From Gordonia gummivorans (lineage in GTDB: Bacteria > Actinomycetota > Actinomycetes > Mycobacteriales > Mycobacteriaceae): a stretch of 64,000 bases of DNA. The stretch spans positions 124,001-188,000 of the forward strand of contig NZ_JAKWBF010000004.1 of assembly GCF_022513585.1 (NCBI RefSeq), written 5' to 3'. Under the pieces are notes generated by a model, which was given only the letters and a program-made list of their open reading frames with translations, was not told where the DNA came from and did no database searches. A program made the position numbers and the translations under genes. The stretch's first letter is position 1. Each line of letters begins with the position of its first letter. This document shows positions 3,017 through 17,208 of the stretch, piece after piece.

Positions 3017-3106
3017 ATGTGCGGTCAGGCTAGCCCGTCCGGCGCCGTGCACGCGATCGTCCCAGTTCGATTGAGTGTCACCGGACACCCGAGGACACTG
3101 GGGTGA
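3017..3106 (+). CDS. Possible 29-codon leader ORF coupled to the FAD-binding protein gene
   Basis: ATG at 3017 follows a strong ribosome-binding site (TGGAGG, 3007-3012) and the frame runs 29 codons (MCGQASPSGAVHAIVPVRLS, then VTGHPRTLG) to a TGA that overlaps the GTG start of the next gene (GTGA at 3103-3106). The downstream GTG has no comparable site of its own, so translation of the short frame may feed the main gene. No homology is recognised; this could also be a chance frame beneath a real ribosome-binding site. Confidence 0.4.
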   Translation: MCGQASPSGAVHAIVPVRLSVTGHPRTLG

Positions 3107-4890
3107 GCGCGCCACGAGGGCCGCACGATCCGCGTGGCCCGCAAGGTCCGACGCGGATCGTGCCTGCCTCCTCTCCTCCGGGCGGGCCGCCGCCTCCCGG
3201 TCCACCACCGCGATACCCCGGTCGGCCGGGTGGACCACCTCCGGGACCGGGTTTTCCGCCGCCTCCTCCAGGTCAACGAGCACCCGGTCCGCCGCCGAGG
3301 TCTGGGGCACCGCAGCCAGCTGCACGTGGTCAGGTGCAGACCGTCGGCGGTGACCTGACACCGGAGCTCATCGACTCCGACGTCTGGACCGACCAGATGG
3401 TCGAGCTCGCCGGGATTCCGGTTGTCGACGTGCCTTTCGTGACGGTCGGATCGGGTATCGGCTCCTTTGTCACGGTCGACTACCTCCGCATTTGTGGCGT
3501 CCCGCTGGACCGGATCGCGGTGCTCGGTCCGCAGGATGTGCCGTGGCACAGCTACGAATACCTGACGCGGGTGTCGCAGATCCCGCGCGGTGAGCGGCTG
3601 CGCTCGGACTCCGCCTCGACGCCGGACAACATCTGGGGATTCCCGTCGTATGCGGTGCGGGAAGCGTGGAACGACAAGAAGATCGGGCCGCTGTGGAACG
3701 TGCTGACCGAGCCGATCTTCTCGAACTACTACACGCCCAAGGCCGGGCACGCATTCGAGTCGATGGAGAAAGAGTGCAACCGGATCGGCTACCTGAATTG
3801 CCTGCATCGCGGACAGGTTCGGATGATCCGACGCCGGGCCGGTGGCGGCTACTTCACGATTCTCACACCGCCGCAAGGAACTTCGCCCACCAAGCGCGTC
3901 GCGTTCCGCAGCCAGTGGGTTCACGTGGCCATCGGCTACCCGGGTATCAAACTGCTGCCCGACCTACAGGCATTCCGTGAGAAGTACCGCGACGCAAGCA
4001 AGGTCGTCAACGCCTACGAGCCGCACGAACACATTTACCAGTCCCTCCAGCGCAAGCCCGGCACGGTGATGATCCGCGGTGCCGGTATCGTCGCATCGCG
4101 TGTCCTGCAGCGGCTCATCGACGACCGCGACAAGTACGGCCTGCAGACCCAGATCGTGCATCTGTTCCGCAGCTACGTCGACAAAGCGCACGGACCGCAC
4201 ATCTTCATGCGGCGCAAAGGCAAGGACGGATGGGCCTACCAGGGCTTCAACTATCCGAAATCGGTGTGGGGTGGCCAACTCAAGGCGCGCATGCGCAAAC
4301 TCGAGGGCCACGAACGCGCCGAGGCGTACAAGCAGATGGGCGGCACCAACACTCCGGTGCGCGACGACTGGCAGGAGCAACTCAAACGCGGACGCTCCGA
4401 GGGCTGGTATCGCGTCGCGGTGGGCAAGGCCGAGAGTCTGGTCCCGGCCCAGGGCGGTCAGGGCGTGATGGCGACGGTGCGCGTCGACCCGCACGCACCG
4501 ATCGAACAGCAACACCGGCCGGACGGGACCTTCGAGCTGTACGCCGATTACGTGATCGACTGCACCGGACTGGAAGCCGACGTCCGCGAGCATCGGCTAC
4601 TCGCCGATCTCCTCGACCACACCGGCGCCGGCATCAACCCGGTCGGTCGCATGGATGTCGAACGGGACTTCGAGCTCAAGGGCACGCGCAATGGCAGCGG
4701 GAAGATCTATGCCTCGGGCAGTGCGACTCTCGGTGGGTACTTCCCGGGCGTCGACACCTTCCTCGGGCTGCAGATCGCGGCCCTCGAGATCGTCGATGAT
4801 CTTGCCAAGCAGGGCTTTTGCAAGCGGCTCGGACCGGGCAGATCGATGCGGCAGTGGTGGCGCTGGGTGAATCACAAGGGGGTGGACTGA
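3103..4890 (+). CDS. FAD/NAD(P)-binding oxidoreductase-like protein with Pro-rich N-terminus
   Basis: 595 aa from GTG 3103. Residues 1-75 are a low-complexity Pro/Gly/Arg tail. A first dinucleotide-binding loop appears as VTVGSGIGSF (116-121) and a second as MIRGAGIVASRVL (326-332). Near the C-terminus DYVIDCTGLEAD and IYASGSATLGGYFPGVDTFL resemble the FAD-binding ends of flavin monooxygenases and disulphide-type oxidoreductases. Substrate unknown. It heads a run of five same-strand genes with gaps of 3, overlap, 11 and 1 bases, suggesting an operon with a membrane protein, an FHA protein, a cation/proton antiporter and a pseudokinase. A redox or NAD(P)-sensing partner for the antiporter is an inference. 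Confidence 0.7.
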   Translation: MSAPRGPHDPRGPQGPTRIVPASSPPGGPPPPGPPPRYPGRPGGPPPGPGFPPPPPGQRAPGPPPRSGAPQPAARGQVQTVGGDLTPELIDSDVWTDQMVELAGIPVVDVPFVTVGSGIGSFVTVDYLRICGVPLDRIAVLGPQDVPWHSYEYLTRVSQIPRGERLRSDSASTPDNIWGFPSYAVREAWNDKKIGPLWNVLTEPIFSNYYTPKAGHAFESMEKECNRIGYLNCLHRGQVRMIRRRAGGGYFTILTPPQGTSPTKRVAFRSQWVHVAIGYPGIKLLPDLQAFREKYRDASKVVNAYEPHEHIYQSLQRKPGTVMIRGAGIVASRVLQRLIDDRDKYGLQTQIVHLFRSYVDKAHGPHIFMRRKGKDGWAYQGFNYPKSVWGGQLKARMRKLEGHERAEAYKQMGGTNTPVRDDWQEQLKRGRSEGWYRVAVGKAESLVPAQGGQGVMATVRVDPHAPIEQQHRPDGTFELYADYVIDCTGLEADVREHRLLADLLDHTGAGINPVGRMDVERDFELKGTRNGSGKIYASGSATLGGYFPGVDTFLGLQIAALEIVDDLAKQGFCKRLGPGRSMRQWWRWVNHKGVD

Positions 4891-4893
4891 CCC

Positions 4894-5331
4894 ATGCTGC
4901 CAACTCTGTGGGGCCGAATTCAGACCCGGGTGCTGGTCCTGGGCATCCTCGGTGGACTCTGGACGCTGGTCCTCGCTCCGTTCCTGCCCGACGGCGCCCC
5001 GATCGCCACGAGCTATCAGGTGGCGTTCACGGTGCTGGCCGTGGTCATCGTGCTGGGTGTCGGCTGGGAGTTCATCTACCACTTCCTGCAACAGTTCCGG
5101 TGGGAGAAGGACTGGCCGACGCTGTTCGGATTGCTCACCGCAATCAACGAGGGCATTGCGGCCTGGTTCTTCCTCAAGTACGTCCCGGTCCTGCCCGACG
5201 ATGTGGAGCTGACCCCACTCGTGTTCTGTATCCAGTTCATCACCACCTGGCTGATCGTGTGGGTGGCGGTCAACGGGCCGTTGCGAGCGATCTTTCCGCA
5301 CTGGCGATTCCAAGGAGGCCGGTTCTTTTGA
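4894..5331 (+). CDS. Small integral membrane protein
   Basis: 145 aa, four predicted membrane segments: VLVLGILGGLWTLVLAPFL (13-31), VAFTVLAVVIVLGVGWEFIY (44-63), TLFGLLTAINEGIAAWFFL (75-93) and VFCIQFITTWLIVWVAVNG (110-128). The ends are basic/aromatic (HWRFQGGRFF). No family recognised. It lies three bases after the FAD-binding protein gene and its TGA overlaps the TTG start of the FHA gene; the AAGGAGG that serves the next gene is inside its last codons. The context suggests a membrane anchor or partner for the cluster. Confidence 0.75.
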   Translation: MLPTLWGRIQTRVLVLGILGGLWTLVLAPFLPDGAPIATSYQVAFTVLAVVIVLGVGWEFIYHFLQQFRWEKDWPTLFGLLTAINEGIAAWFFLKYVPVLPDDVELTPLVFCIQFITTWLIVWVAVNGPLRAIFPHWRFQGGRFF

Positions 5332-6941
5332 CCACGTCAGCCGAGACCCCGAGTCTGACGCCAACCGTCACCCTGGTCCCGGGCGACGGAATCGTGATCC
5401 GCAAACCCGCATTCCTGTGCGTGCTCACCTCCGACGCACCGGCCGCGCTGCTCAAGGACGTCACTGCGCTCCAGGCCGCCGTCGCGGTACCCGACCGGAT
5501 GCCGCGCCGCGGCCGTCATCTGGTGCGCAAGCTCGCCGAGATCGTCGCCACCGCCGACGACCCGGTGAACATCGCCTTCGCCGCGCCCGACAGCGCCGGA
5601 ATCGCAATCTTCATGTCCGGGGCGGTGTTTGCCGAAGCCGACGGTGAGCGACTCGAACCGGAGGGCGACGAACCCTTCGACCGTGCCGTGGTGTGGCCGT
5701 TCGAAGGATTGGGGCTGTATCTGGTCGGCGCGGTCCCCGCCGAACCGGGCGAAGAGACCTTCGACCTGGTCAACGGTGTGGTCCCGGCCAGGGGTGCCCT
5801 GTTGCACACGCCGCTGGGCCTGCGGGGCACCGAAATCCACGAGATCGCCGCGCCACCACCGCGTATTCGTCCAGAAGTCCACGTCGACGACATCGCATCC
5901 AAGCCTGCCGCCGAGCCGGTCGACGCCGAGTCCGTTCCGGCCTTCCACGAACCGCCCCTGGACTTTTCGAAGCCGGCGCCGGAGCCGCCGGTGGAAGAGC
6001 CGGTCGTCCAACCGGATCCGGTTGCGCCCGCGCCGGCCGCCGACGCTGTGGACGAATCGATGAACTCGGCGACCGAACCCATGCGGGCGCCAACTCCGCC
6101 GCCTCCTCCTCCTCCTCCTCCTCCTCCTCCTCCGCAGCCCGAGCCGCGCCCTGGCCCGGTGGCAGTGCCCGAACCGCAACCGTTCCAGTCGTCGTCACTG
6201 GGCGGTGGTGAACCGTTCCAGTCGGCGTCGCTCGGTTCCGTGGGTCCCGACCCCGTTGCACTCGAGCCTGCTGCACCCGAGCCCATTGCGCCCGAGCCGG
6301 TTCCGCAGCCGCTGCCCGTCCAACCCGTGCGACCCGCCGAACCGGTGCAGCATGCACACGTGCATCACGACGACCTGCACGAACCGGTGGAGCAGCGCGC
6401 ACCGTTGCCCAAGCAGGAACATCAGCGGCCGGCAACCGAGGTCGTGAAGATCGAGGAATCCCGCGCACATGTCCACGGGATTCGCTGCTCCCGTGGACAT
6501 CTCAACCACCCGCAATCGTGGCTGTGCGGGGTGTGCGGCATCCGCATGGATCAGCTCACCGCGATCCTCGTCGAAGGGGAGCGGCCGCCGCTGGGCTGGC
6601 TGTTGCTCGACAACGGGTCCACGTACCTGCTCGACGAGGATCTGGTGATCGGACGTGAACCGGGCACCGGAGGGGGTGGAGGGCGTGGGAAGCCCAAACC
6701 GATTCGCGTGCAGGACGAGTCCGGGCAGCTCTCTCGGCGACACGTCGAGATCCGGCTCGTCGAATGGACGGTGCAGCTCGTCGACCTTGGTTCGGCGAAC
6801 GGTACCTACGTCGTCGACCCGTTGAGCGGCAATCGGGAGACCCGACTGCCCGCGCAGCGCCCGCATGTGCTCGCTCCCGGCTCGCACGTGCGAATCGGCG
6901 GACGGCACTTCATCTTCGAATCCCCGCACGCCCGAGTCTGA
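5328..6941 (+). CDS. Zinc-ribbon and FHA domain protein
   Basis: 537 aa from a TTG start (TTGA overlap with the previous stop; AAGGAGG at 5312-5318). Residues 1-175 form a globular domain of unknown family; 175-380 are Pro/Glu-rich with an uninterrupted run of Pro encoded by (CCT)n near 257-269; 385-405 form a short zinc ribbon (RCSRGHLNHP...CGVCG, C387, C400, C403 plus a His); 430-533 is an FHA domain with the phosphothreonine-binding signature GRE (442-444), SRRH (469-472) and NGTY (491-494). FHA domains bind phosphothreonine, so this protein should respond to a Ser/Thr kinase. The neighbours are an antiporter and a kinase-like protein that lacks the catalytic Asp, so the true kinase may be elsewhere. 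Confidence 0.88.
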   Translation: MTTSAETPSLTPTVTLVPGDGIVIRKPAFLCVLTSDAPAALLKDVTALQAAVAVPDRMPRRGRHLVRKLAEIVATADDPVNIAFAAPDSAGIAIFMSGAVFAEADGERLEPEGDEPFDRAVVWPFEGLGLYLVGAVPAEPGEETFDLVNGVVPARGALLHTPLGLRGTEIHEIAAPPPRIRPEVHVDDIASKPAAEPVDAESVPAFHEPPLDFSKPAPEPPVEEPVVQPDPVAPAPAADAVDESMNSATEPMRAPTPPPPPPPPPPPPPQPEPRPGPVAVPEPQPFQSSSLGGGEPFQSASLGSVGPDPVALEPAAPEPIAPEPVPQPLPVQPVRPAEPVQHAHVHHDDLHEPVEQRAPLPKQEHQRPATEVVKIEESRAHVHGIRCSRGHLNHPQSWLCGVCGIRMDQLTAILVEGERPPLGWLLLDNGSTYLLDEDLVIGREPGTGGGGGRGKPKPIRVQDESGQLSRRHVEIRLVEWTVQLVDLGSANGTYVVDPLSGNRETRLPAQRPHVLAPGSHVRIGGRHFIFESPHARV

Positions 6942-6952
6942 CCGAGGGCGAC

Positions 6953-9100
6953 ATGGCCGACACGCACACCGTCACGTTCCTTCTCCTCGACGTCGCCGTC
7001 GTCATCGCGGCGGCGCGAGCGGGTGGCTTCGTGGCACGTAAGTTGGGGCAGCCCGCGGTGGTAGGTGAGATCGCGGCCGGAATCGCGCTGGGGCCAAGCC
7101 TGCTCGGGCTGTTCCCGGGCAACCCCGACGAATGGCTGTTCCCGACCGAGGTGCGACCGCTGCTCTTGGCGATAGCCCAGCTCGGGCTGGTCTTGTTCAT
7201 GTTCATCGTCGGGCTCGAACTCGACATGCGGCTCATCAAGGGGCGTGAACGCGCTGCGGCGAGCATCTCGCTGTCGTCGATCATCCTGCCGTTCGCGCTC
7301 GGTGCGGCACTCGCCCTGATCCTGTACGACCAGCACGACGACAAGTCCCTCGCCCCGAATGTCAGTCTCCTGAACCTGACGCTGTTTCTCGGAATAGCCA
7401 TGTCCATCACCGCATTTCCGGTGCTGGCCCGCATTCTGAACGACCGAGGGATGATGCGCACGGTGCCCGGCGTGTTCAGCCTGGCGGCAGCCGCGGTCGA
7501 CGACATCGTCGCGTGGACCCTCCTCGCATTCGTGACCGCCATCATCGGTGGCGAGAACGTGGGTGACGTCGGCAAGATCGTCGGGCTGTCGCTGTTGTAC
7601 TGCGCGGTGATGTTCCTCGTCGTGCGCCCGTTGCTCGCTCGTCTGGTCGAGTGGCGCGACACCGCGGGCCGCATGACTCCCGACATCCTTGCCGTTGTCC
7701 TGATCGGGTTGTTCCTGTCTGCGGCGGCCACCGAGTGGATCGGCATCCACTTGATCATCGGTGCCTTTGTGTTCGGTGCGGTGATGCCGAAAGTCGGCGC
7801 CGAACAACTGCACCGGGAGATCCTCGAACGGCTGGAACAGGCCAGCGTGCTGCTCTTGCTGCCGATGTTCTTCGTGGTCACCGGTCTGGCGGTGGACCTG
7901 AGCGGCATCGGTCTGGACGGGTTGTGGCAGCTCGTGCTGGTTCTCCTCGTGGCGATCGCGGGTAAGTTCTTCGGAGCGTTTGCCGGTGCTCGGGCCAGTG
8001 CGATCCCGGGCAGACAGAGCGCTGCGATAGCCGTGCTGATGAACACACGAGGGCTCACCGAGTTGGTGATCCTGTCCGTGGGGCTCAGCCTCGACGTGCT
8101 CACACCCCAGCTCTACGCGATGCTCGTGGTCATGGCGCTGGTCACCACTGTGCTCACCGCGCCGCTCCTACGACTCGTGTATCCGGATTCGGTGGTGGCC
8201 AACGACATTGCGGAGGCCGAGCGCCTCGCATTGGCGGCCGGATCGGCCAACCGGGCGATGGTGGTGCTGACCGATCTCGACGCGAGTGTCGACGAACTGT
8301 TGCATCGACATCGGCGACTCTTCGGTGCAGCGGCAGGCTACGACGTGGTCCTGGCCGGCGTACTCTCGGTCACGGCGCCCGCGAAGCGGCTCGAGGTCGG
8401 GGTGCCGATCATGCCGGACTTCGCTGCGATGGCGTCGGCCGTGGAGAAGCTGAACATGTTGGGATCGGCGTTACCGGGCCCGGATTCGGTGTCGGTGCTG
8501 TGCCGCTTCAGTGCCGACCCGGTGGTCGATCTGACCGAGATGGCCGAGAACGCCAACATCGATTTCATCTTCCTCGACAGCAGCCGTTCCGAGATCGCCG
8601 ACGGGCTGCAGATCGCACCCGTGGTGACGGTGGACGAGCGAGCTCCGGGACCCGATATTGCTGCGAGCGGGGATCGGGGGGCCGCGTCGATCGTCTGCGT
8701 CGCACCGGAGACGCGTGCCGGCCGGACCGCCATTCTTGTGGCTGCCGGGTTGGCACTCAACGAATCTGCGCCGCTGACGATCGTGACCGGCGCATCTCGG
8801 CGTCGCGTGCTCGCCGATCTGGAACCGGCGATCGACCAAGGTCTCGAGATCAGCGTCATCGACCGCAAGCGCTCCTACGATCGGGTCGCGGCATTGATTG
8901 TGGTGGCCGACGAGGAGACCGACGGCACGGTCAAGGTCGTCGACCATGTGGGAACCAGTGAAGAAGGCTTGGGGGACAGGGTGAGTCGCTACTTTGAACG
9001 GGTGGTCGCAGAACGGGTGGACTCAGCCGCCCCGCGCCCGATACTCGGGCAACCAGTGCACACGCACACCACAGCACACGAAACACCGGAGAGGCACTGA
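6953..9100 (+). CDS. CPA2-type cation/proton antiporter with C-terminal cytoplasmic domain
   Basis: 715 aa from ATG 6953, 11 bases after the FHA gene. About 12-13 membrane segments span residues 5-420, with the conserved loop LGQPAVVGEIAAGIALGP (31-48) and the paired acidic residues of the transport core in AAVDDIVAWTLL (D183, D184). Residues 425-715 are cytoplasmic alpha/beta sequence resembling universal-stress-type folds; I see no clear GxGxxG of an RCK/KTN domain. KefB/KefC and related CPA2 exchangers move K+ or Na+ for H+ and are often controlled by soluble partners, which the adjacent FAD-binding and FHA proteins could be. Confidence 0.9.
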   Translation: MADTHTVTFLLLDVAVVIAAARAGGFVARKLGQPAVVGEIAAGIALGPSLLGLFPGNPDEWLFPTEVRPLLLAIAQLGLVLFMFIVGLELDMRLIKGRERAAASISLSSIILPFALGAALALILYDQHDDKSLAPNVSLLNLTLFLGIAMSITAFPVLARILNDRGMMRTVPGVFSLAAAAVDDIVAWTLLAFVTAIIGGENVGDVGKIVGLSLLYCAVMFLVVRPLLARLVEWRDTAGRMTPDILAVVLIGLFLSAAATEWIGIHLIIGAFVFGAVMPKVGAEQLHREILERLEQASVLLLLPMFFVVTGLAVDLSGIGLDGLWQLVLVLLVAIAGKFFGAFAGARASAIPGRQSAAIAVLMNTRGLTELVILSVGLSLDVLTPQLYAMLVVMALVTTVLTAPLLRLVYPDSVVANDIAEAERLALAAGSANRAMVVLTDLDASVDELLHRHRRLFGAAAGYDVVLAGVLSVTAPAKRLEVGVPIMPDFAAMASAVEKLNMLGSALPGPDSVSVLCRFSADPVVDLTEMAENANIDFIFLDSSRSEIADGLQIAPVVTVDERAPGPDIAASGDRGAASIVCVAPETRAGRTAILVAAGLALNESAPLTIVTGASRRRVLADLEPAIDQGLEISVIDRKRSYDRVAALIVVADEETDGTVKVVDHVGTSEEGLGDRVSRYFERVVAERVDSAAPRPILGQPVHTHTTAHETPERH

Positions 9101-9101
9101 C

Positions 9102-9914
9102 ATGGCCACCGTCGAGATTCCGCAACAGCTCGCGGATTTCACTGTGCTCAGCAAGTTGGGTGCAGGAGGAAACGGCACGTTCTACGTGGCGGTCCCACCA
9201 CCGCGCCTGAACATCAACGCCGAGCGCGTGGTGGTGAAGGTGTTCAGCGGCACCTGTAGTGACGATGCCTATCGTCGCGGTGTCCGCGAGCTCCGCGCGT
9301 TCGCCGCGGTGCAGTCGCCGTATCTCGCCGCGTTGTACGACGCTGTGCTCCAAGGCCAATTCATGTATGCCATGGAGTATTTCCCGCTGGGATCGCTGGG
9401 CGCTCCGACTCGGCCGCTGACCCGCAACGAGAAGCTGTCGGCGATCGCCGACGCGGCCCGTGGCGTCGACGCACTGCACGAAGCTGGGATCGCCCACGCC
9501 AACATCACGCCGACGAGCATCATGGTCACCGAGGGCGGCGGTCGCATCTCGGACCTCGGTCTGGCCCGGGTTCTCGCCGCCGATGAGCCGATCACCAGTT
9601 TCGCGCAGCCCGGCGCGGTCCAGTACATGGATCCTGCTCTGCTGGCCGGTGACACACCATCCCGTGCCACCGACATCTGGTCGCTCGGTGCGTGCCTGCA
9701 CGTCGCGCTCACCGGTCGCGGCGTGTACGGCGACATCCCAGAAGCCCAGCCGCTGTTGGCGATTCGCGCCGCACTGTCCACTCCGCCGGCGCTCTCGGAG
9801 AACCTCGACCGCGACGAGCGTGCGCTGATCGCGAGTTGTCTCGCACTGGCCGGCACCCGCCCGGCCACCGCACTCGAGGTCGCCGACAAGATCGAGGCGA
9901 TCAAAGAGGCGTGA
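9102..9914 (+). CDS. Soluble Ser/Thr kinase-like protein, probable pseudokinase
   Basis: 270 aa, a bare kinase domain with no membrane segment. The glycine loop (LGAGGNGTFYVA, from 19) and the VAIK-type lysine (VVVKVF, K46) are present, and the DFG motif is DLG (151-153), followed by DIWSLGA (191-197). The catalytic loop HRDLKPxN reads HANITPTS (132-139): the base Asp is Asn134 and the magnesium-binding Asn position is Ser. ATP binding is plausible; catalysis is doubtful. The gene starts one base after the antiporter stop, so it is most likely an allosteric or scaffold component of the cluster. Alternatively it is a weakly active atypical kinase. Confidence 0.85.
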   Translation: MATVEIPQQLADFTVLSKLGAGGNGTFYVAVPPPRLNINAERVVVKVFSGTCSDDAYRRGVRELRAFAAVQSPYLAALYDAVLQGQFMYAMEYFPLGSLGAPTRPLTRNEKLSAIADAARGVDALHEAGIAHANITPTSIMVTEGGGRISDLGLARVLAADEPITSFAQPGAVQYMDPALLAGDTPSRATDIWSLGACLHVALTGRGVYGDIPEAQPLLAIRAALSTPPALSENLDRDERALIASCLALAGTRPATALEVADKIEAIKEA

Positions 9915-10146: not shown

Positions 10147-11727
10147 TCAGGTGCCGAAAGGTGCTGTCTGCCACCAGTCGTCGAGGACTTGCTGCCCGGT
10201 GTGGCCGGGCCACGTGGCGACGATCGTGTAGGGGCGCCGTGGGTCGTCGTTGAAGTTGGTGATGGTCCAGCCGTGCGGGACCGTGTCGGGGCTGGCGAAG
10301 ACCGGGCCCTCATCCCACCGGTGGGGCTGGCCGGGGCGTTTGGGCAAGTCGGCGGTGACGACGGACCGGCCGGCCATGGTGGCGGTGTGCCACACGACGA
10401 ACGTGAGGTTGTTGGGGTTGATGCAGCTGATCCCGGGGACGTCGCCGTTGGTGATCTCCTTGCATCCGGAGTCACCCCAGCCGTTCTCGGCCGGTCGCGA
10501 GGGAAGCAGGTCGGGGAAGGTGTCGGCGATCGGTGCGGCGGCCGACGACCACTTGTCGCCGCCGTTCCGCGCCCCCAGGTAGGCGAGCGTGCCGATGACG
10601 ACACCGACGATGACCAGCACGGAGACGATGGGCACCACGACGGGCGGCATCCGCCGGTTGTGGGCAGATTTGGCACGGACTGCCGACCCCGATCGAGATG
10701 CGTTGCGCGGCTGGGGATGATGAGAGGCGTCGGCCTGCCCGAGGGCGGCGCGGCGGTCGGTGACCACCTCGGTGTCACTCTCCGGATTTGCCCGCGGGGT
10801 GAACAGTCGCCGGAGGCGGGTGGTCGGCTGGTCTATCGCCTGGGTGGTCGCCTCCACTGAAGCAGGAGCGGGTTGTGATCGCTGCGCGTCGGCGACCTGT
10901 GCGGCCCTCGTCGCCGACGACGACGGCGGCACCGGGCTCCCCGACGGGAAGTCGCCCGACGGCGGTGGCTGGGCGGCTTCGGGCCGGGACAGTGTGACGG
11001 CGAGTTCGGCCGCGCGCGTGAATTCGGCGCACGTGCGATAGCGCACGTTCTTGTCGGCACCGAGGGCGCGGTCGATGGCCGACCGCAGGGTGGGCGAAAT
11101 GCTCTCCGACAGTGGTTCATTGGGTGACGGAGGGGTTCCGGTGAGCAGCTCGAGGAGCACGTAGGCCAGCATGTGAACGTCGTTCGCGGGATGGTACCGG
11201 GCGTCGTCTGCGGTGCGCGACAGGGCAAATCCGGTGAGGACGGCGCGTGGTGCAGCTGTCTGCTGTCCCGCCTCGGCTGGCACGAGGATGATCGTGGCCG
11301 GGCTGATGTTGCGCAGGACAAGGCCTTTGCGGTGCGCGCTGTCGAGCCCCTTGCCGATGTCGGTGACGATGGCGACGGCGGTCTCTTCGTCGAAAGCGTT
11401 GGGTCCACTGCGGAGACGTTCGGCAGCGGAGATGCCGTCGAGGTGTCGGGCGGCCACCCACAGTTGCGCGTTGTCGCTCCCGCGTCCGAGCACTTCGGCG
11501 AGGTTGGGATGCCGCAAGCGCGTTGCGACGTCGATGGCGCGCTCGAGTCGGCGTCGAAAGTCGGGATCGGCGGAGAGATCGGGTCGGATCAGGGTGAGGT
11601 CCACCGGCTCCGGGTGCGAGGGGTTGGTGGCGAGGTAGGTGACCCCGCCCGGGTCCGCCCGCAACACGGCCTCGATCCGATGCCCTGACACTGTGGTTCC
11701 CGGCGGGACGGTGCCAGAGATGTTCAC
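10147..11727 (-). CDS. Membrane-anchored pseudokinase with extracytoplasmic domain
   Basis: 526 aa from a GTG at 11727 (GGGGAG upstream); extension further upstream would overlap the next gene. The kinase-like domain covers about 1-245: the glycine loop is weak (ADPGGVTYLAT), no VAIK lysine is visible (VDLTLIRPDL), HRD is LRN (138-140, followed by ISPATI) and DFG is TGF (165-167). All catalytic signatures are therefore lost. A Pro/Ser-rich linker follows, then one membrane helix (PPVVVPIVSVLVIVGVVIGT, roughly residues 350-372) and a ~150 aa outer domain with two cysteines (GCKEI, SCINPNN). The layout is PknB-like or MviN-like; the likely role is binding rather than phosphorylation. It converges on the cluster ending at 9914. 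Confidence 0.85.
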   Translation of the reverse strand: MNISGTVPPGTTVSGHRIEAVLRADPGGVTYLATNPSHPEPVDLTLIRPDLSADPDFRRRLERAIDVATRLRHPNLAEVLGRGSDNAQLWVAARHLDGISAAERLRSGPNAFDEETAVAIVTDIGKGLDSAHRKGLVLRNISPATIILVPAEAGQQTAAPRAVLTGFALSRTADDARYHPANDVHMLAYVLLELLTGTPPSPNEPLSESISPTLRSAIDRALGADKNVRYRTCAEFTRAAELAVTLSRPEAAQPPPSGDFPSGSPVPPSSSATRAAQVADAQRSQPAPASVEATTQAIDQPTTRLRRLFTPRANPESDTEVVTDRRAALGQADASHHPQPRNASRSGSAVRAKSAHNRRMPPVVVPIVSVLVIVGVVIGTLAYLGARNGGDKWSSAAAPIADTFPDLLPSRPAENGWGDSGCKEITNGDVPGISCINPNNLTFVVWHTATMAGRSVVTADLPKRPGQPHRWDEGPVFASPDTVPHGWTITNFNDDPRRPYTIVATWPGHTGQQVLDDWWQTAPFGT

Positions 11728-12268: not shown

Positions 12269-13129
12269 ATGAACGCGATTCTCGTCGGCGTTGACGGGTC
12301 GGACGCGGCAACAGGTGCAGTACGGTGGGCGGCTCGAGCCGCCGCGGTGGAGAACGCCGAACTCAAGTTGGTAGGCGTGTATGACGCCAGCACCAGTGAC
12401 TACGCCCCGGGGTTGATCATTCCCCAGGACGTCATCGACGCAATTCGTCAAGATGCCTCTGATGCGGTACATGCCGCCGCGGATGCGGCCAAGCAGGTGG
12501 CTCCCGACGTCAGTGTCGTCACCTCGATCGTCGACGGCGATGCCGGCCGCGTCCTTCTCGAACTCGGCAAGGAAGCATCGATGATCGTCCTCGGTACCCG
12601 CGGGCTCGGCAGCGTCAAAGGACTGTTCCTGGGTTCGGTGAGCACCACGGTCGCCGCACACGCGCATGGGCGCGTCGTGATCGTCGCCGGTGAAGGCGGC
12701 GGCGGACCGGTGGTGGTCGGTGTCGACGATTCGCCGGTCAGCGAAGCCGCTGTCGCCGAGGCGTACCGGCAGGCGTCGTTGCGCAACGCGACACTCGTGG
12801 CAGTGCACACCTGGACACCGCTGGATGTGGATGCCCTGCACGGCTATGGCATCGACCCCGATGAGGTCGCGCGGATGTCGCAGGACGCCGTGGAAGCCGT
12901 TGCCGAGCGGATGGCCGGATTCGCCTCCGACTATCCCGACGTCAACGTCGAGCGCAAGGTGCTGCCGGAGGATCCGGCCAAGGCGCTGCTGGACGCTGCG
13001 GGCGACGACGCTCAACTGATCGTCGTGGGCAGCCGCGGTCGTGGCGGCTTCAAAGGACTACTGCTCGGCTCGACCAGCCAGAAGGTCATGCACCAGGCGC
13101 AATGCCCGGTGATGGTCGTCCGGGCCTGA
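12269..13129 (+). CDS. Universal stress protein, two tandem UspA domains
   Basis: 286 aa made of two UspA repeats (about 1-145 and 150-286). Each has the ATP-binding signature G-x2-G-x9-G-(S/T): GTRGLGSVKGLFLGSVST and GSRGRGGFKGLLLGSTSQ. Each begins with the usual strand and acidic residue (ILVGVDGSD, VVVGVDDSP). Double-domain USPs of this kind in mycobacteria bind ATP and accumulate in hypoxia and dormancy. The start ATG at 12269 follows GAGGAG at 12250-12255. The gene stands alone, with a palindrome upstream and a hairpin just after it. Confidence 0.95.
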   Translation: MNAILVGVDGSDAATGAVRWAARAAAVENAELKLVGVYDASTSDYAPGLIIPQDVIDAIRQDASDAVHAAADAAKQVAPDVSVVTSIVDGDAGRVLLELGKEASMIVLGTRGLGSVKGLFLGSVSTTVAAHAHGRVVIVAGEGGGGPVVVGVDDSPVSEAAVAEAYRQASLRNATLVAVHTWTPLDVDALHGYGIDPDEVARMSQDAVEAVAERMAGFASDYPDVNVERKVLPEDPAKALLDAAGDDAQLIVVGSRGRGGFKGLLLGSTSQKVMHQAQCPVMVVRA

Positions 13130-13165
13130 CAGACTCGCGTCCGCGGGCGTGCGGGCGCAACCGAT

Positions 13166-13203
13166 CGAACACCCCATGATCCCGTCGGGGGCAGGGGTGT
13201 TCG
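13166..13203 (+). terminator. Hairpin terminator after usp
   Basis: CGAACACCCC (13166-13175) and GGGGTGTTCG (13194-13203) are perfect 10-base arms around an 18-base loop, 37 bases after the stop codon. There is no U tract, as is common for actinobacterial terminators. Confidence 0.55.
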
Positions 13204-13293
13204 TGATCATGGATCGCCGACGGTGGCCTTCGTACGACGACGGGCCGCTCGCAGCGATCCTTCTCCGGGACCGGTGACGCCTACCATGGCGGC

Positions 13294-13743
13294 ATGGCCC
13301 TGAAGAAGCTCGAGCTCTCCGTGGGAGAACTCGCGCAGCGGGCAGGAATCGCACCGTCGGCGGTCCGATTCTATGAGGAGCAGGGACTCATCTTCTCCCG
13401 GCGTACCTCGGGGAATCAGCGACGCTATCACCGTGCGATGCTGCGTCGAGTGGCCTTCATCCGGGCGTCGCAGGCAGCCGGGATTCCGCTGGCAGTGATC
13501 GCCGAGGTCCTCTCCGAACTCGGTGACCACGAATCGCCGCCGAAAGCGATGTGGGAAGCGGCGTCCAAACGGTGGATCGACGACATCAACCATCGCATCG
13601 CACTCCTGGAGAACATGCGCGACATGATCGGCTCGTGTGTGGGCTGCGGATGCCTGTCGCTGGGGGAGTGTCACCTGCTCAATCCGGGGGACGAACTCAA
13701 CAAACTCGGCCCCGGGCCGCGTCGACTGATGCGGGATAACTGA
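13294..13743 (+). CDS. soxR: SoxR redox-sensing transcriptional regulator
   Basis: 149 aa MerR-family protein. The N-terminal winged helix reads LSVGELAQRAGIAPSAVRFY EEQGLI; a dimerisation helix follows; and the [2Fe-2S] ligands are exactly those of SoxR, C-x2-C-x-C-x5-C at C115, C118, C120, C126 (CVGCGCLSLGEC). SoxR is activated by oxidation of the cluster by redox-cycling compounds; in actinomycetes it controls a few oxidoreductases and exporters. Nearby candidates are the patatin/MFS pair immediately downstream. No clear SoxR box was found upstream. Confidence 0.93.
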   Translation: MALKKLELSVGELAQRAGIAPSAVRFYEEQGLIFSRRTSGNQRRYHRAMLRRVAFIRASQAAGIPLAVIAEVLSELGDHESPPKAMWEAASKRWIDDINHRIALLENMRDMIGSCVGCGCLSLGECHLLNPGDELNKLGPGPRRLMRDN

Positions 13744-13772
13744 CTTTCTGGGGGCGTCGATAGTGTGGGGGC

Positions 13773-14735
13773 ATGGCTCGACCGACGCGGGTGGCGCTCG
13801 CCCTGGGTAGTGGTGGCGCGCGGGGCTACGCGCACATCGGGGTGATCGAGGAACTCCTTGCGCGTGATTTCGAGATCGTCAGCGTCGCGGGCTCGTCGAT
13901 GGGTGCACTCGTGGGTGGACTGCACTGTGCGGGCCGCCTCGATGAGTATGTCGAGTGGATCGCGGGTCTGCGACAACTCGACGTCGTCCGCCTGGTGGAT
14001 GTGTCGTTGAACAAACCGGGCGGAGTGATCGGTGCCGAGCGGGTCGTCGACCGAGTTCGGGAGATGCTGGGAGACAAGCAGATCGAGGATCTCGAGATCC
14101 CGTTCACCGCTGTCGCCACCGACCTGAACGCCGGGCGGGCGGTGTGGTTCCAGCGTGGCCAACTCGTCGACGCGATCCGCGCTTCGATCGCCATTCCGGG
14201 TGTCATCAGTCCACACGAATACCAGGGACAACTCCTCGGCGACGGCGGCATTCTGGATCCGCTTCCGGTGGCACCGACCTCGGCGGTACCCAGCGACGTC
14301 ACGATCGGGGTGATCCTCGGCTCCGACAGCGGGCCCGACGACGGCGCATCGCGGGAACCGCGCCCCAAGGGCCTGCTGCGCCGCAACGTGGCACCGATCC
14401 TGGAGACCGAGTTCGTCCGATCGGTCCGCGAACGCTTCGGCTTCGATGGCACCGGTTCCGATACCGACACCAAGGACACCGACGACACCGCCGACGCCGC
14501 CGACGCCAAGGAAGGGCCGCAGCGGATGGGCCGAATCGAGGTTCTCGGCCGTTCGCTCGACATCATGCAGGAAGCGCTGACGCGCTACCAGGTCGCCGGA
14601 TACCCGCCGGATGTGCTCATCCGGGTCCCGCGCAATGCGGTCCGGACCCTCGACTTCCACAAGGCGTCCGAGATGATCCAACTCGGGCGGGAACTCACCG
14701 CGCAGGCGCTCGACGATCTGCCCGAGCGGCCATGA
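13773..14735 (+). CDS. Patatin-like phospholipase/acyl hydrolase
   Basis: 320 aa of the bacterial patatin (RssA) type. The oxyanion loop is LGSGGARGYAHIG (from 11), the nucleophile elbow GSSMG (40-44, Ser42), and the catalytic Asp lies in LLGDGGILDPLP (D157), giving the Ser-Asp dyad. Residues about 228-247 are a low-complexity Asp/Thr/Ala insert. No signal peptide, so probably cytoplasmic. The stop overlaps the start of the MFS gene (ATGA), so the two are coupled. Substrate not predictable. Confidence 0.92.
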   Translation: MARPTRVALALGSGGARGYAHIGVIEELLARDFEIVSVAGSSMGALVGGLHCAGRLDEYVEWIAGLRQLDVVRLVDVSLNKPGGVIGAERVVDRVREMLGDKQIEDLEIPFTAVATDLNAGRAVWFQRGQLVDAIRASIAIPGVISPHEYQGQLLGDGGILDPLPVAPTSAVPSDVTIGVILGSDSGPDDGASREPRPKGLLRRNVAPILETEFVRSVRERFGFDGTGSDTDTKDTDDTADAADAKEGPQRMGRIEVLGRSLDIMQEALTRYQVAGYPPDVLIRVPRNAVRTLDFHKASEMIQLGRELTAQALDDLPERP

Positions 14736-15937
14736 AGCAGATTCCTCGCGGTATCTGGGTGTTGCTCGCCGCCAACGTGGTGATCGCCCTCGGCTATGGC
14801 CTGATCGCACCCGCGTTGCCGAGTTTTGCGCGCAGTTTCAACGTGTCGCTCACCGCGGCGACGGCCGTCGTGTCGGCGTTCGCGGTGATGCGGCTGCTGT
14901 TCGCGCCGGCCACCGGGCGTCTCGTCACCCTGTTCGGTGAACGCCGCATCTACCTCACCGGGCTGTTGATCGTCGCCGTCAGTACCTTCGCGTGTGCGTT
15001 CGCGCAGGGCTACTGGCAGTTGCTGGTGTTCCGGGCGGCCGGTGGCATCGGATCGACGATGTTCAGCATCTCCGCGATGGCGCTGCTGATCAGGATGTCG
15101 CCCAACGACATTCGCGGTCGCGTGTCCGGATTCTTCTCGGCCGGTTTCCTGATCGGCAACATCACCGGCCCGCTGATCGGGGCGGCGCTCGTCGGGTTCG
15201 GGCTCCGTATGCCGTTCGTCGTCTACGCGATCGCACTGGTGATCGCCTCCGCGGTGGTGGCCACCCAGCTGCGTGAGGTGCCGGCACCCGACCGCACCGA
15301 CGGCCCGGCGAGCGGCGTCATCTCCTTTCGGCACGCCCTCGGCGACAGCGCCTACCGCGCGATCATCGCGTCCAACTTCACCCAGGGCTGGGCGTCGATG
15401 GGGGTGCGGGTTGCCGTGGTTCCGCTGTTCGTCACCGAAGGGCTCGACGAGGGTGCCGGCATGGCGGGGGTGGTGCTGGCCGTGTACGCCGCCGGCAACG
15501 TCGTCGCGATCCTCAGCGCGGGCCGCCTGTCGGATCGTTACGGGCGTCGGCCCATCATGCTGCCCGGACTGGTCCTGATGGCGGCCTCGACGGCCGCTCT
15601 CGGGTTCTCCGCGAACATCGTTGTCGCGCTGGTCCTGTCGCTCGTCGCGGGTGCGGGATCGGGGTTGTTCGCACCCACCCATCAGGCGGCCCTCGCCGAT
15701 GTGCTCGGAAATCGGCAACAGGGCGGCTCTGCGTTGGCGGCCTATGGCATGTCGTCGGATCTGGGTGCGATCAGTGGGCCAGTGATCGTCGGGTTCGTGG
15801 CCGACCGGGTGGGTTTCGGTCCAGCGTTCGTGTTGACGGGTGTGGTGGCGGCGCTCGCCTGCGTGATGTGGCTGTTCGCGCGGGAGACCGCGCCGGCGAT
15901 CGTCGGCGACGGTCCGACGATCACACCCACCGGATGA
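14732..15937 (+). CDS. MFS transporter
   Basis: 401 aa from ATG 14732, overlapping the patatin stop by four bases. Twelve membrane segments are visible. MFS signatures include GRLVTLFGERRIYLTG between TM2 and TM3 (the A motif) and AGRLSDRYGRRPIMLPGLVL between TM8 and TM9. This two-fold A motif is typical of drug-efflux (DHA1) members. Coupling with a lipid hydrolase and proximity to soxR suggest export of a lipophilic or redox-active compound, but the substrate is unknown. Confidence 0.9.
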   Translation: MKQIPRGIWVLLAANVVIALGYGLIAPALPSFARSFNVSLTAATAVVSAFAVMRLLFAPATGRLVTLFGERRIYLTGLLIVAVSTFACAFAQGYWQLLVFRAAGGIGSTMFSISAMALLIRMSPNDIRGRVSGFFSAGFLIGNITGPLIGAALVGFGLRMPFVVYAIALVIASAVVATQLREVPAPDRTDGPASGVISFRHALGDSAYRAIIASNFTQGWASMGVRVAVVPLFVTEGLDEGAGMAGVVLAVYAAGNVVAILSAGRLSDRYGRRPIMLPGLVLMAASTAALGFSANIVVALVLSLVAGAGSGLFAPTHQAALADVLGNRQQGGSALAAYGMSSDLGAISGPVIVGFVADRVGFGPAFVLTGVVAALACVMWLFARETAPAIVGDGPTITPTG

Positions 15938-15978
15938 TTTGAAATGTGCGCGCCTCGCCGAGGCTCTACCGTTGACTC

Positions 15979-17208
15979 ATGACCGATCGGGACGCGTACG
16001 ACTATCGGCTCGGGGCGACATCGGAGGTGGGCCGACTCCGCGCCGTCATGCTGCACCGGCCCGGCGACGAGCTCAGGCGTCTGACCCCGCGCAACAACGA
16101 TCAACTCCTGTTCGACGGTCTGCCCTGGGTGGGTCGCGCGCAGGAGGAGCACGACGCCTTCGCGCAGGTGCTGACCGACCGCGGTGTCGACGTCTACCTC
16201 CTCGGTGATCTCCTCACCCAAACCCTCGAACACAGTGGTGCCGCACGTATTCAGGGGATCGCGGCGGCGGTCAGTGCGCGGCGGCTGGGCAACCACCTGG
16301 CCGAGGACCTCGCCGGCCACCTCCGGTCGTTGCCGCCCGCCGAACTCGCCCGTGTCCTGACCGCGGGAATGACCTACGACGAACTGCCGATCACACCGTC
16401 GGCGGCCACGTCGTCGCTGGTGCGTCGGATGCACCACGGGCCGGAGTTCGCGATCGACCCGCTGCCGAATCTGCTGTTCACCCGCGACAGTTCGTTCTGG
16501 ATCGGGCCGCGGTTCGCGATCACCTCGCTGGCCCTGCCGGCGCGTGCCCGCGAAACCTCCCTGACCGACCTCATCTACGCACACCACCCGCGGTTCACCG
16601 GTGCCCGACGCGCCTATGAGTCGCAGGTGGCGCCCGTCGAAGGGGGTGACGTGCTGCTGCTCGCCCCGGGCGTGGTGGCGGTCGGCGTCGGCGAACGCAC
16701 CACACCGGCCGGTGCGGAAGCCTTGGCGCGCAGTCTCTTCGACGACGAACTCGCGCACACCGTGCTCGCGGTGCCGATCGAACAGGCCCGCGCGTTCATG
16801 CACCTCGACACCGTCTGCACCATGGTCGACACCGACGCCGTCGTGATGTACCCCAACATCCGCGACACGATGTCGGCGTTCACGTTGACCCACCGCGACG
16901 GCGAGGTGACCGTGACCGGTTCGCGACCCTTCGTCGACGCCGCCGCCGAGGCGATGGGAATCGACAAGCTTCGCGTGATCGACACCGGACTCGATCCGGT
17001 GACCGCCGAACGTGAGCAATGGGACGACGGGAACAACACGTTGGCCGTCGCCCCGGGCGTGGTGGTCTCCTATAACCGGAATGTGGAAACCAATCGACGC
17101 CTTGTGGATTCGGGTATCGAGGTGATCGAGATCGAAGGCCGCGAACTCGGTTCGGGCCGTGGGGGACCGCGCTGCATGTCCTGCCCCATCGCCCGAGATC
17201 CACTGTGA
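15979..17208 (+). CDS. arcA: Arginine deiminase
   Basis: 409 aa, full length. Converts arginine to citrulline and ammonia. Family motifs: [13 protein letters not shown] near the N-terminus, [12 protein letters not shown] (about 168-179), the catalytic His in [32 protein letters not shown], and the nucleophile in GGPRCMSCP (C399). No carbamate kinase or catabolic ornithine transcarbamylase is beside it, so ATP-yielding fermentation is not encoded here; ammonia release, acid defence or nitrogen supply is more likely. A small GntR regulator follows after 13 bases and a BCCT transporter after that. Confidence 0.96.

Follow-up and report, generated by a model that had tools for sequence, protein, structure and literature searches.

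Five adjacent genes, designated A to E, in a 64,000-nucleotide stretch of Gordonia gummivorans DNA (the window; contig NZ_JAKWBF010000004.1, positions 124,001 to 188,000) almost certainly form a functional unit. They encode a predicted flavoprotein (A), a small membrane protein (B), a protein combining a predicted PP2C-type fold, a zinc ribbon, and an FHA domain (C), a cation/proton antiporter (D), and a protein of the Ser/Thr kinase family (E). The genes are assigned to one unit because of their joint presence and absence in 150 genomes, their linkage within loci, the overlap of B with C, the fusion of a B-like domain into C in one locus, and the occurrence of a divergent A'-B' pair next to genes with FHA domains. 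Most likely, A and B are a membrane redox pair controlled by the reading of phosphothreonine. The probability of the whole mechanism, in which C reads phosphothreonine and assembles A on B, and D is tuned by the same signal, is estimated at about 0.35.

Distribution and linkage of the five genes

The co-occurrence of the genes across Mycobacteriales, which the initial sequence-only reading of the locus had proposed as a check, was determined in 150 genomes sampled evenly from the order, including that of the window. Gene A was found in 18 genomes and gene B in the same 18, with one additional marginal match to B at an E-value of 9.6e-4. Orthologues of E (at least 231 bits) are present in 15 of the 18 genomes with A, and full-length D (at least 455 bits) in exactly those 15; neither occurs in any of the 132 genomes without A. 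The E-value cut-offs were 1e-40 for E and 1e-105 for D, and at most 17 candidates for E and seven for D were scored per genome. Weaker paralogues of E (149–178 bits) occur in six genomes without A, and genome G041 has a second copy at 167 bits. Four genomes without A match D across its membrane part only (387 bits or less). The nominal chance values for the co-occurrence, approximately 1e-23, 5e-18, and 6e-21, treat related genomes as independent and are hence too small to be read at face value.

Gene order was compared in 98 loci, comprising the window, 17 loci from the order draw, and the best 80 of 249 relatives from GTDB. Five loci were dropped for having identical A ends, one such pair (L064/L075) belonging to two Nocardia species, and 93 were retained. 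The taxa represented include Gordonia, Nocardia, Antrihabitans, Geodermatophilaceae, Pseudonocardia, Occultella, Nocardioides, Streptosporangiaceae, Micromonosporaceae, Thermomonospora, and metagenome-assembled genomes, among others. The nearest named relatives of A among those fetched are from Gordonia species (82–91%). Genes A and B are present in all 93 distinct loci and C in 89; the four loci without C end at contig edges. Within the stretches fetched, which do not cover whole genomes, 64 of the 93 loci contain ABCDE together, and homologues are not scattered in the way that the sequence-only reading had named as fatal to the idea of a system. The other loci are ABC (22), ABCD (2), ABC-E (1), and AB only (4). 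In locus L038, E lies just beyond the fetched stretch. Sixteen of the 22 ABC loci are from Nocardia. The genome of L034 has D and E on another contig, an E orthologue is present at another site in the genomes of the ABC loci L071 and L122, and L076 includes only 3 kb past A.

The commonest order is A B C, inverted D, E. Relative to A, gene D is inverted in 43 of 66 loci; it has the same orientation as A in 13 Gordonia loci and 10 others, and E is on the strand of A in 62 of 65. Three Micromonosporaceae-type loci have the order A B C E D, as does L114, in which B was not called as a gene. Where B and C are neighbours, the two genes share four bases in 52 of 88 cases. In the loci examined for this, the flanks vary from lineage to lineage, and conservation therefore concerns the block itself, not an extended region of synteny.

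Nine Nocardia genomes contain A-B-C and no E orthologue (best E-values from 6.5e-20 to 7.5e-18, about 30–36% identity). They have no D near A-B-C, and the only relatives found, of the membrane part of D, are at 33–49%, the tail not having been searched. Because A-B-C occurs without E in Nocardia, is separated from D-E in Antrihabitans, and often adjoins an inverted D, the core consists of A-B-C, with D-E as a linked second pair. Complex I genes are located near A-B-C in 17 Nocardia loci (among L056–L077), on the strand opposite to A in L062, and 16 of these loci also have RuBisCO genes (one match partial). Outside Nocardia, no such neighbours were found in the window and the fetched loci from L027 on.

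The genes extend into deep lineages of the phylum. A draw of 396 genomes was searched with A, and then with A', a divergent relative taken from a weak match. The first search returned 11 strong matches, including that of the window, and two weak ones. In the ten strong loci beyond the window, B adjoins A in nine; five have C with an FHA domain, two more show the first domain of C before the contig ends, and L145 is too short. Three loci (L139–L141) have the order D A B E C; the contig of L141 ends within C. The A' query gave matches in 17 of the 396 genomes: five full-length A', one genome with fragments, and a weak remainder that is mostly A itself. A fragment, L151, was omitted from the deep set. 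A' aligns to A with an hhalign probability of 99.2 and 25% identity over 399 columns, and B' to B with a probability of 84.7 and an E-value of 6.7e-6. The A'-B' pair stands beside an FHA gene in L147, L148, L149, and L150 and beside a kinase gene in L146; in L147, genes for a kinase and an antiporter of 902 residues are present as well. In two deep lineages, a TauE/SafE-type transporter gene is located between B and E (L142:6608-7795 and L143:7649-8962). The gene after C encodes a glutamate dehydrogenase in L139, as identified by Pfam, and in L140, as judged by its similar sequence.

Properties of the encoded proteins

Protein A has no Pfam match above the cut-off and belongs to no NCBIfam family, and its sequence matches nothing among solved structures at an E-value of 1. 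Its predicted model has a two-dinucleotide-binding fold, in agreement with the sequence-only description of a two-Rossmann oxidoreductase-like protein, and structure comparison shows that the model resembles YpdA, PvdA, and SidA. Residues G37, G39, G41, G247, and G249 of the glycine motifs are invariant. The predicted structure matches a flavoprotein of the YpdA/PvdA class. Locus L043, in which A is split over two frames, was omitted from the alignment and model.

Protein B likewise has no Pfam match above the cut-off and no NCBIfam family. It had been described as a four-helix membrane protein; it is a membrane protein, but its hydropathy profile has three strong peaks, and the fourth helix is only implied. 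The N-terminal motif MxPTLxGRxQTR is conserved across 108 sequences, with threonine at position 4 in 101 of them, and it is retained in both the near and the far families.

The FHA domain of protein C matches PF00498 with 38.6 bits against a cut-off of 20.7. The phosphate-binding residues of FHA domains belong to the GR, SxxH, and NG motifs, and in 92 C proteins they are kept almost throughout (R443 91/92, S469 90/92, R470 90/92, H472 92/92, and N491 91/92). All three cysteines of the zinc ribbon are present in 92 of 92 proteins. Both domains had been recognized from the sequence. What had been overlooked is that the first approximately 165 residues of C have a PP2C-type fold, according to the predicted model and VIA-align. 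The sequence of this N-terminus gave nothing credible among solved structures (best E-value 0.033), and none of 38 C members has a PP2C family match. PP2C phosphatases have conserved metal-binding aspartates; in C the catalytic acids are not conserved, position 118 being the only one that is acidic in more than 65% of the members (33/38). In locus L042, a B-like domain is fused into C. The linker of this protein (L042:8595-10457) bears the B-like domain as a second membrane domain, and the FHA residues of the same protein are damaged.

Protein D matches Na_H_Exchanger (PF00999) with 180.8 bits against a cut-off of 26.2, whereas its score against the NCBIfam CPA2 model TIGR00932, 148.6 bits, is below the cut-off of 238.3. 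It matches the antiporter NapA (4bwz) from Thermus with an E-value of 2.6e-22, and the DD motif is aligned with D183/D184. Position 183 is aspartate in 56 of 70 sequences and position 184 in 70 of 70. Usp (PF00582) matches were found in 10 of 26 D tails, with a best E-value of 3.7e-7, and none for the window copy itself. RCK is absent among the seven families matched by the 26 tails at an E-value of 0.1 or better. The PF00999 match and the lack of an RCK family bear out the original description of D as a CPA2 antiporter without an evident RCK domain.

Protein E matches PF00069 with 80.5 bits against a cut-off of 31.7. Position 134 is asparagine in all 13 Gordonia copies, including that of the window (HAN for HRD), and aspartate in all 52 distinct copies from outside Gordonia. 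The initial view of E as a kinase-like protein with the catalytic aspartate replaced by asparagine therefore describes Gordonia, but not the family at large. Lys46 of strand beta-3, Asp151 of the DFG motif, and Thr165 of the activation loop are invariant in the 65 distinct proteins. In nine further Gordonia loci, some of them from species already seen, all five genes are present in one direction, and the loop reads AHAN in seven and AHGN in two.

In the deep-branching clade, the E loops read HRH (L137), HRN (L138), and HRE (L139–L141), and HRD is kept in L142, L143, and the second copy in L137. In the latter locus, the inactive-looking HRH copy and the intact HRD copy flank A-B (L137:7423-8238 and 10387-11289). 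In a FastTree tree of E, the Gordonia copies (support 1.0) and the five deep copies without the aspartate (0.994) form separate clades. The catalytic aspartate was thus lost independently at least twice. Thr165 is retained in all five Asp-less deep copies, even in that of L138, which is without the lysine and DFG motifs.

Table 1. Features of the five-gene locus (window coordinates)
Feature	Position	Strand	Description
Upstream open reading frame, 29 codons	3017-3106	+	Strong Shine-Dalgarno; stop overlaps GTG of A (GTGA)
Gene A	3103-4890	+	GTG start; predicted two-dinucleotide-binding-domain flavoprotein; Pro-rich N-terminal extension; conserved part from ~3340
Gene B	4894-5331	+	Small membrane protein; N-terminal motif MxPTLxGRxQTR
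Gene C	5328-6941	+	PP2C-fold domain (predicted), Pro-rich linker, CHCC zinc ribbon, FHA domain
C, PP2C-fold domain, residues 11-168	5358-5831	+	No conserved PP2C catalytic acids
C, zinc ribbon C387...H391...C400..C403	6486-6536	+	CHCC
C, FHA domain, residues 452-524 in Pfam	6681-6899	+	PF00498; Arg443 of GR motif just ahead
Gene D	6953-9100	+	CPA2 (NapA-like) cation/proton antiporter; Usp-like C-terminal region
D, cytoplasmic C-terminal region	8195-9097	+	Usp similarity in relatives
Gene E	9102-9914	+	Soluble Ser/Thr-kinase-family protein; pseudokinase in Gordonia
E, catalytic loop HANITPTS, residues 132-139	9495-9518	+	Stands where HxDxKPxN is expected
E, activation-loop Thr165	9594-9596	+	Thr in 65/65 distinct copies

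All five genes of the window are on the same strand (Table 1). The spacings of 3, -4, 11, and 1 bases at the A/B, B/C, C/D, and D/E junctions agree with the tight packing reported at the outset. The start of the first gene required correction: position 3017 is out of the frame of A and opens the upstream open reading frame. An upstream frame that overlaps the start of A with its stop was found in four of 13 Gordonia loci scanned (the window, L044, L046, and L048), two of the 13 (L051 and L054) being cut off just upstream of A. The peptides are unrelated between the four loci, and a conserved leader peptide was therefore rejected; the frame is probably a translation-coupling device or nothing.

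Gene A begins 191 bases past the gene for L31, the last of a set at 235-2911 that encodes second-copy-type ribosomal proteins S18, S14, L28, and L31 and the ribosome-hibernation recruiting GTPase MRF, a kind of set that is usually controlled by zinc. The next gene after E (10147-11727, minus strand) encodes another degenerate kinase, which has a membrane segment and an outer domain. It has LRN for HRD and TGF for DFG, and its Pkinase score of 27.7 bits is under the cut-off; the kinases at the equivalent position in L050 and L091 have an intact HRDVKP loop. Farther downstream (12269-17208) are genes for a tandem universal stress protein, a MerR regulator, a patatin, a major facilitator superfamily transporter, and arginine deiminase.

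Proposed mechanism and alternative explanations

In the proposed mechanism, C would be a phosphothreonine-reading scaffold, a role suggested because its FHA residues are kept in 90–92 of 92 proteins. The FHA domain would bind phosphothreonine, most likely at Thr165 of E or at Thr4 or Thr11 of B, the N-terminus of B being taken as cytoplasmic. The PP2C-fold domain, probably inactive, and the zinc ribbon may hold the complex together. Docking would bring A to B and switch the NAD(P)H/FAD activity or redox sensing of A; the redox role is proposed because of the predicted fold. In lineages in which the kinase is active, E would supply the phosphate. In Gordonia, another kinase may phosphorylate E, and E would serve as a docking platform, which is proposed because Thr165 is kept in both lineages without the catalytic aspartate. 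D, if present, would be a second membrane client, with cation/proton exchange tuned by the same signal. More tentatively still, the locus may encode an ancient actinobacterial membrane signalling complex that controls a flavoprotein-membrane redox pair and, optionally, cation/proton exchange, and in which the writer (pseudokinase E) and the eraser (PP2C-fold scaffold) are non-catalytic in some lineages.

Several observations speak against the proposed mechanism. The model of A is of moderate quality (mean pLDDT, the predicted local distance difference test score, of 74.9; weak around residues 80–130 and 280–340), and no closest enzyme function stands out for it. FHA residues are damaged in two of 92 C proteins (L041 and L042). 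The activation-loop threonine is a usual site of kinase activation, and its conservation in active copies is expected anyway. At the cut-offs used, the D-E pair is missing from three of the 18 genomes with A (G014, G033, and G097), and in Antrihabitans L071 D and E form a divergent pair outside the 21.5-kb stretch around A-B-C. Two deep loci are exceptions to the core: in L136, A adjoins an antiporter gene and no B or C was found near it, and in L144, A and B are present but the approximately 5 kb downstream yielded no C. Gene A is present in only 22 of 59 Gordonia species.

It is possible, but unlikely, that A and B form an enzyme pair acting on a compound of the membrane or envelope and modifying it, with A an N-hydroxylase or flavin-containing monooxygenase (FMO)-like enzyme, C and E as regulators, and D compensating the change in ions or pH. 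A Foldseek search with the A model ranked ornithine/lysine N-hydroxylases first, the structural match spanning approximately 340–390 residues, and A-B is the most constant pair, B being a membrane protein. However, A has no Pfam monooxygenase match at an E-value of 1, and the flanks sampled contain no biosynthetic genes common to the lineages, but instead Mfd, Era/RecO/UppS, complex I, and RuBisCO genes. The sequence-only reading suggested a Kef-like system, with D as the main output, A as its redox sensor or activator, and phosphothreonine reading added. The linked and conserved gene set stood up to the analysis. In favour of the Kef-like reading, 15 of the 150 genomes combine full-length D with E and A, and a flavoprotein is linked to a CPA2 antiporter. 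The picture of a Kef-type antiporter was weakened by the Usp-like tail of D with no RCK match, the inversion of D relative to A in most loci, the Nocardia A-B-C loci described above, and the YpdA/PvdA class of the A model. Membership in the Kef group is disfavoured by the tail, and the Kef-like arrangement as a whole is improbable.

An anti-phage defence function is very improbable. The patchy presence in Gordonia and the matches of E to generic defence kinase models would fit such a function, but E matches as expected of any Ser/Thr kinase, A, B, C, and D have no PADLOC match at an E-value of 0.01, and the flanks sampled hold housekeeping genes. The sole match in the plasmid set is a single record, an 11.85-Mb Nonomuraea replicon, in a stretch without annotated genes, and plasmid transfer was rejected. 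That the genes are chance neighbours with no common function is barely credible, even though some lineages lack D or have it inverted or at a distance. This explanation is already contradicted, for A-B-C and for D-E, by joint presence and absence in the 150 genomes and by persistence in deep lineages despite changed flanks and order. The control of a membrane redox pair A-B by phosphothreonine reading is retained as the most likely explanation.

Comparison with known systems

No description of the gene set or of its combination was found in the openly licensed literature, with few subscription journals covered, which agrees with the initial statement that no described system with these five genes was known. 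The combination of parts of known kinds appears new; A, B, and the first domain of C have no Pfam match above the cut-off, but they accompany one another across a phylum. Through this locus, phosphothreonine signalling may be connected in a new way to redox state and ion balance in actinobacteria. The locus also provides a natural experiment: the catalytic loop of the kinase is intact in most lineages, the aspartate was lost in at least two, and the activation-loop threonine was kept. The E lineages make the role of a bacterial kinase after the loss of phosphorylation directly testable.

YpdA, FMO, and the N-hydroxylating monooxygenases PvdA, SidA, and KtzI have 10–18% identity to A in structural alignments. 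Unlike these enzymes, A has long inserts and no Pfam match above the cut-off, and it adjoins the membrane partner B in 93 of 93 main-set loci. The N-terminal domain of C has 6–14% identity, among the matches listed, to PP2C phosphatases such as PstP and Stp1, but it is shorter and its catalytic acids are not conserved. The Na+/H+ antiporter NapA has a membrane domain and DD motif like those of D; in contrast to NapA, D has an additional cytoplasmic tail of approximately 300 residues, with the Usp similarity seen in relatives.

The KefC-KefF potassium efflux system resembles the locus in that a CPA2 antiporter is linked to a flavin-type protein. Unlike KefC, D has no RCK match, a DD motif as in NapA, and a Usp-like tail. 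KefF is a small protein of flavodoxin-type fold, whereas the match of the A model, over most of its length, is to two-dinucleotide-binding flavoproteins. No flavodoxin-type protein is among the fold matches of A listed, although such a listing by itself excludes nothing. KefF is described as a flavin mononucleotide protein with an accessory role (PMC11150392).

The MviN/FhaA pair of mycobacteria offers a precedent for the proposed interaction of E with C, since it consists of a pseudokinase and an FHA protein that act together in actinobacteria; the phosphorylated tail of the pseudokinase MviN is reported to recruit the FHA domain (PMC12599244). In MviN, the site is in the C-terminal tail and the kinase motifs are wholly degraded, whereas E is a separate soluble protein with a catalytic loop that is intact in most lineages. 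In comparison with FhaA, the FHA protein C also carries the predicted PP2C-fold domain and the zinc ribbon.

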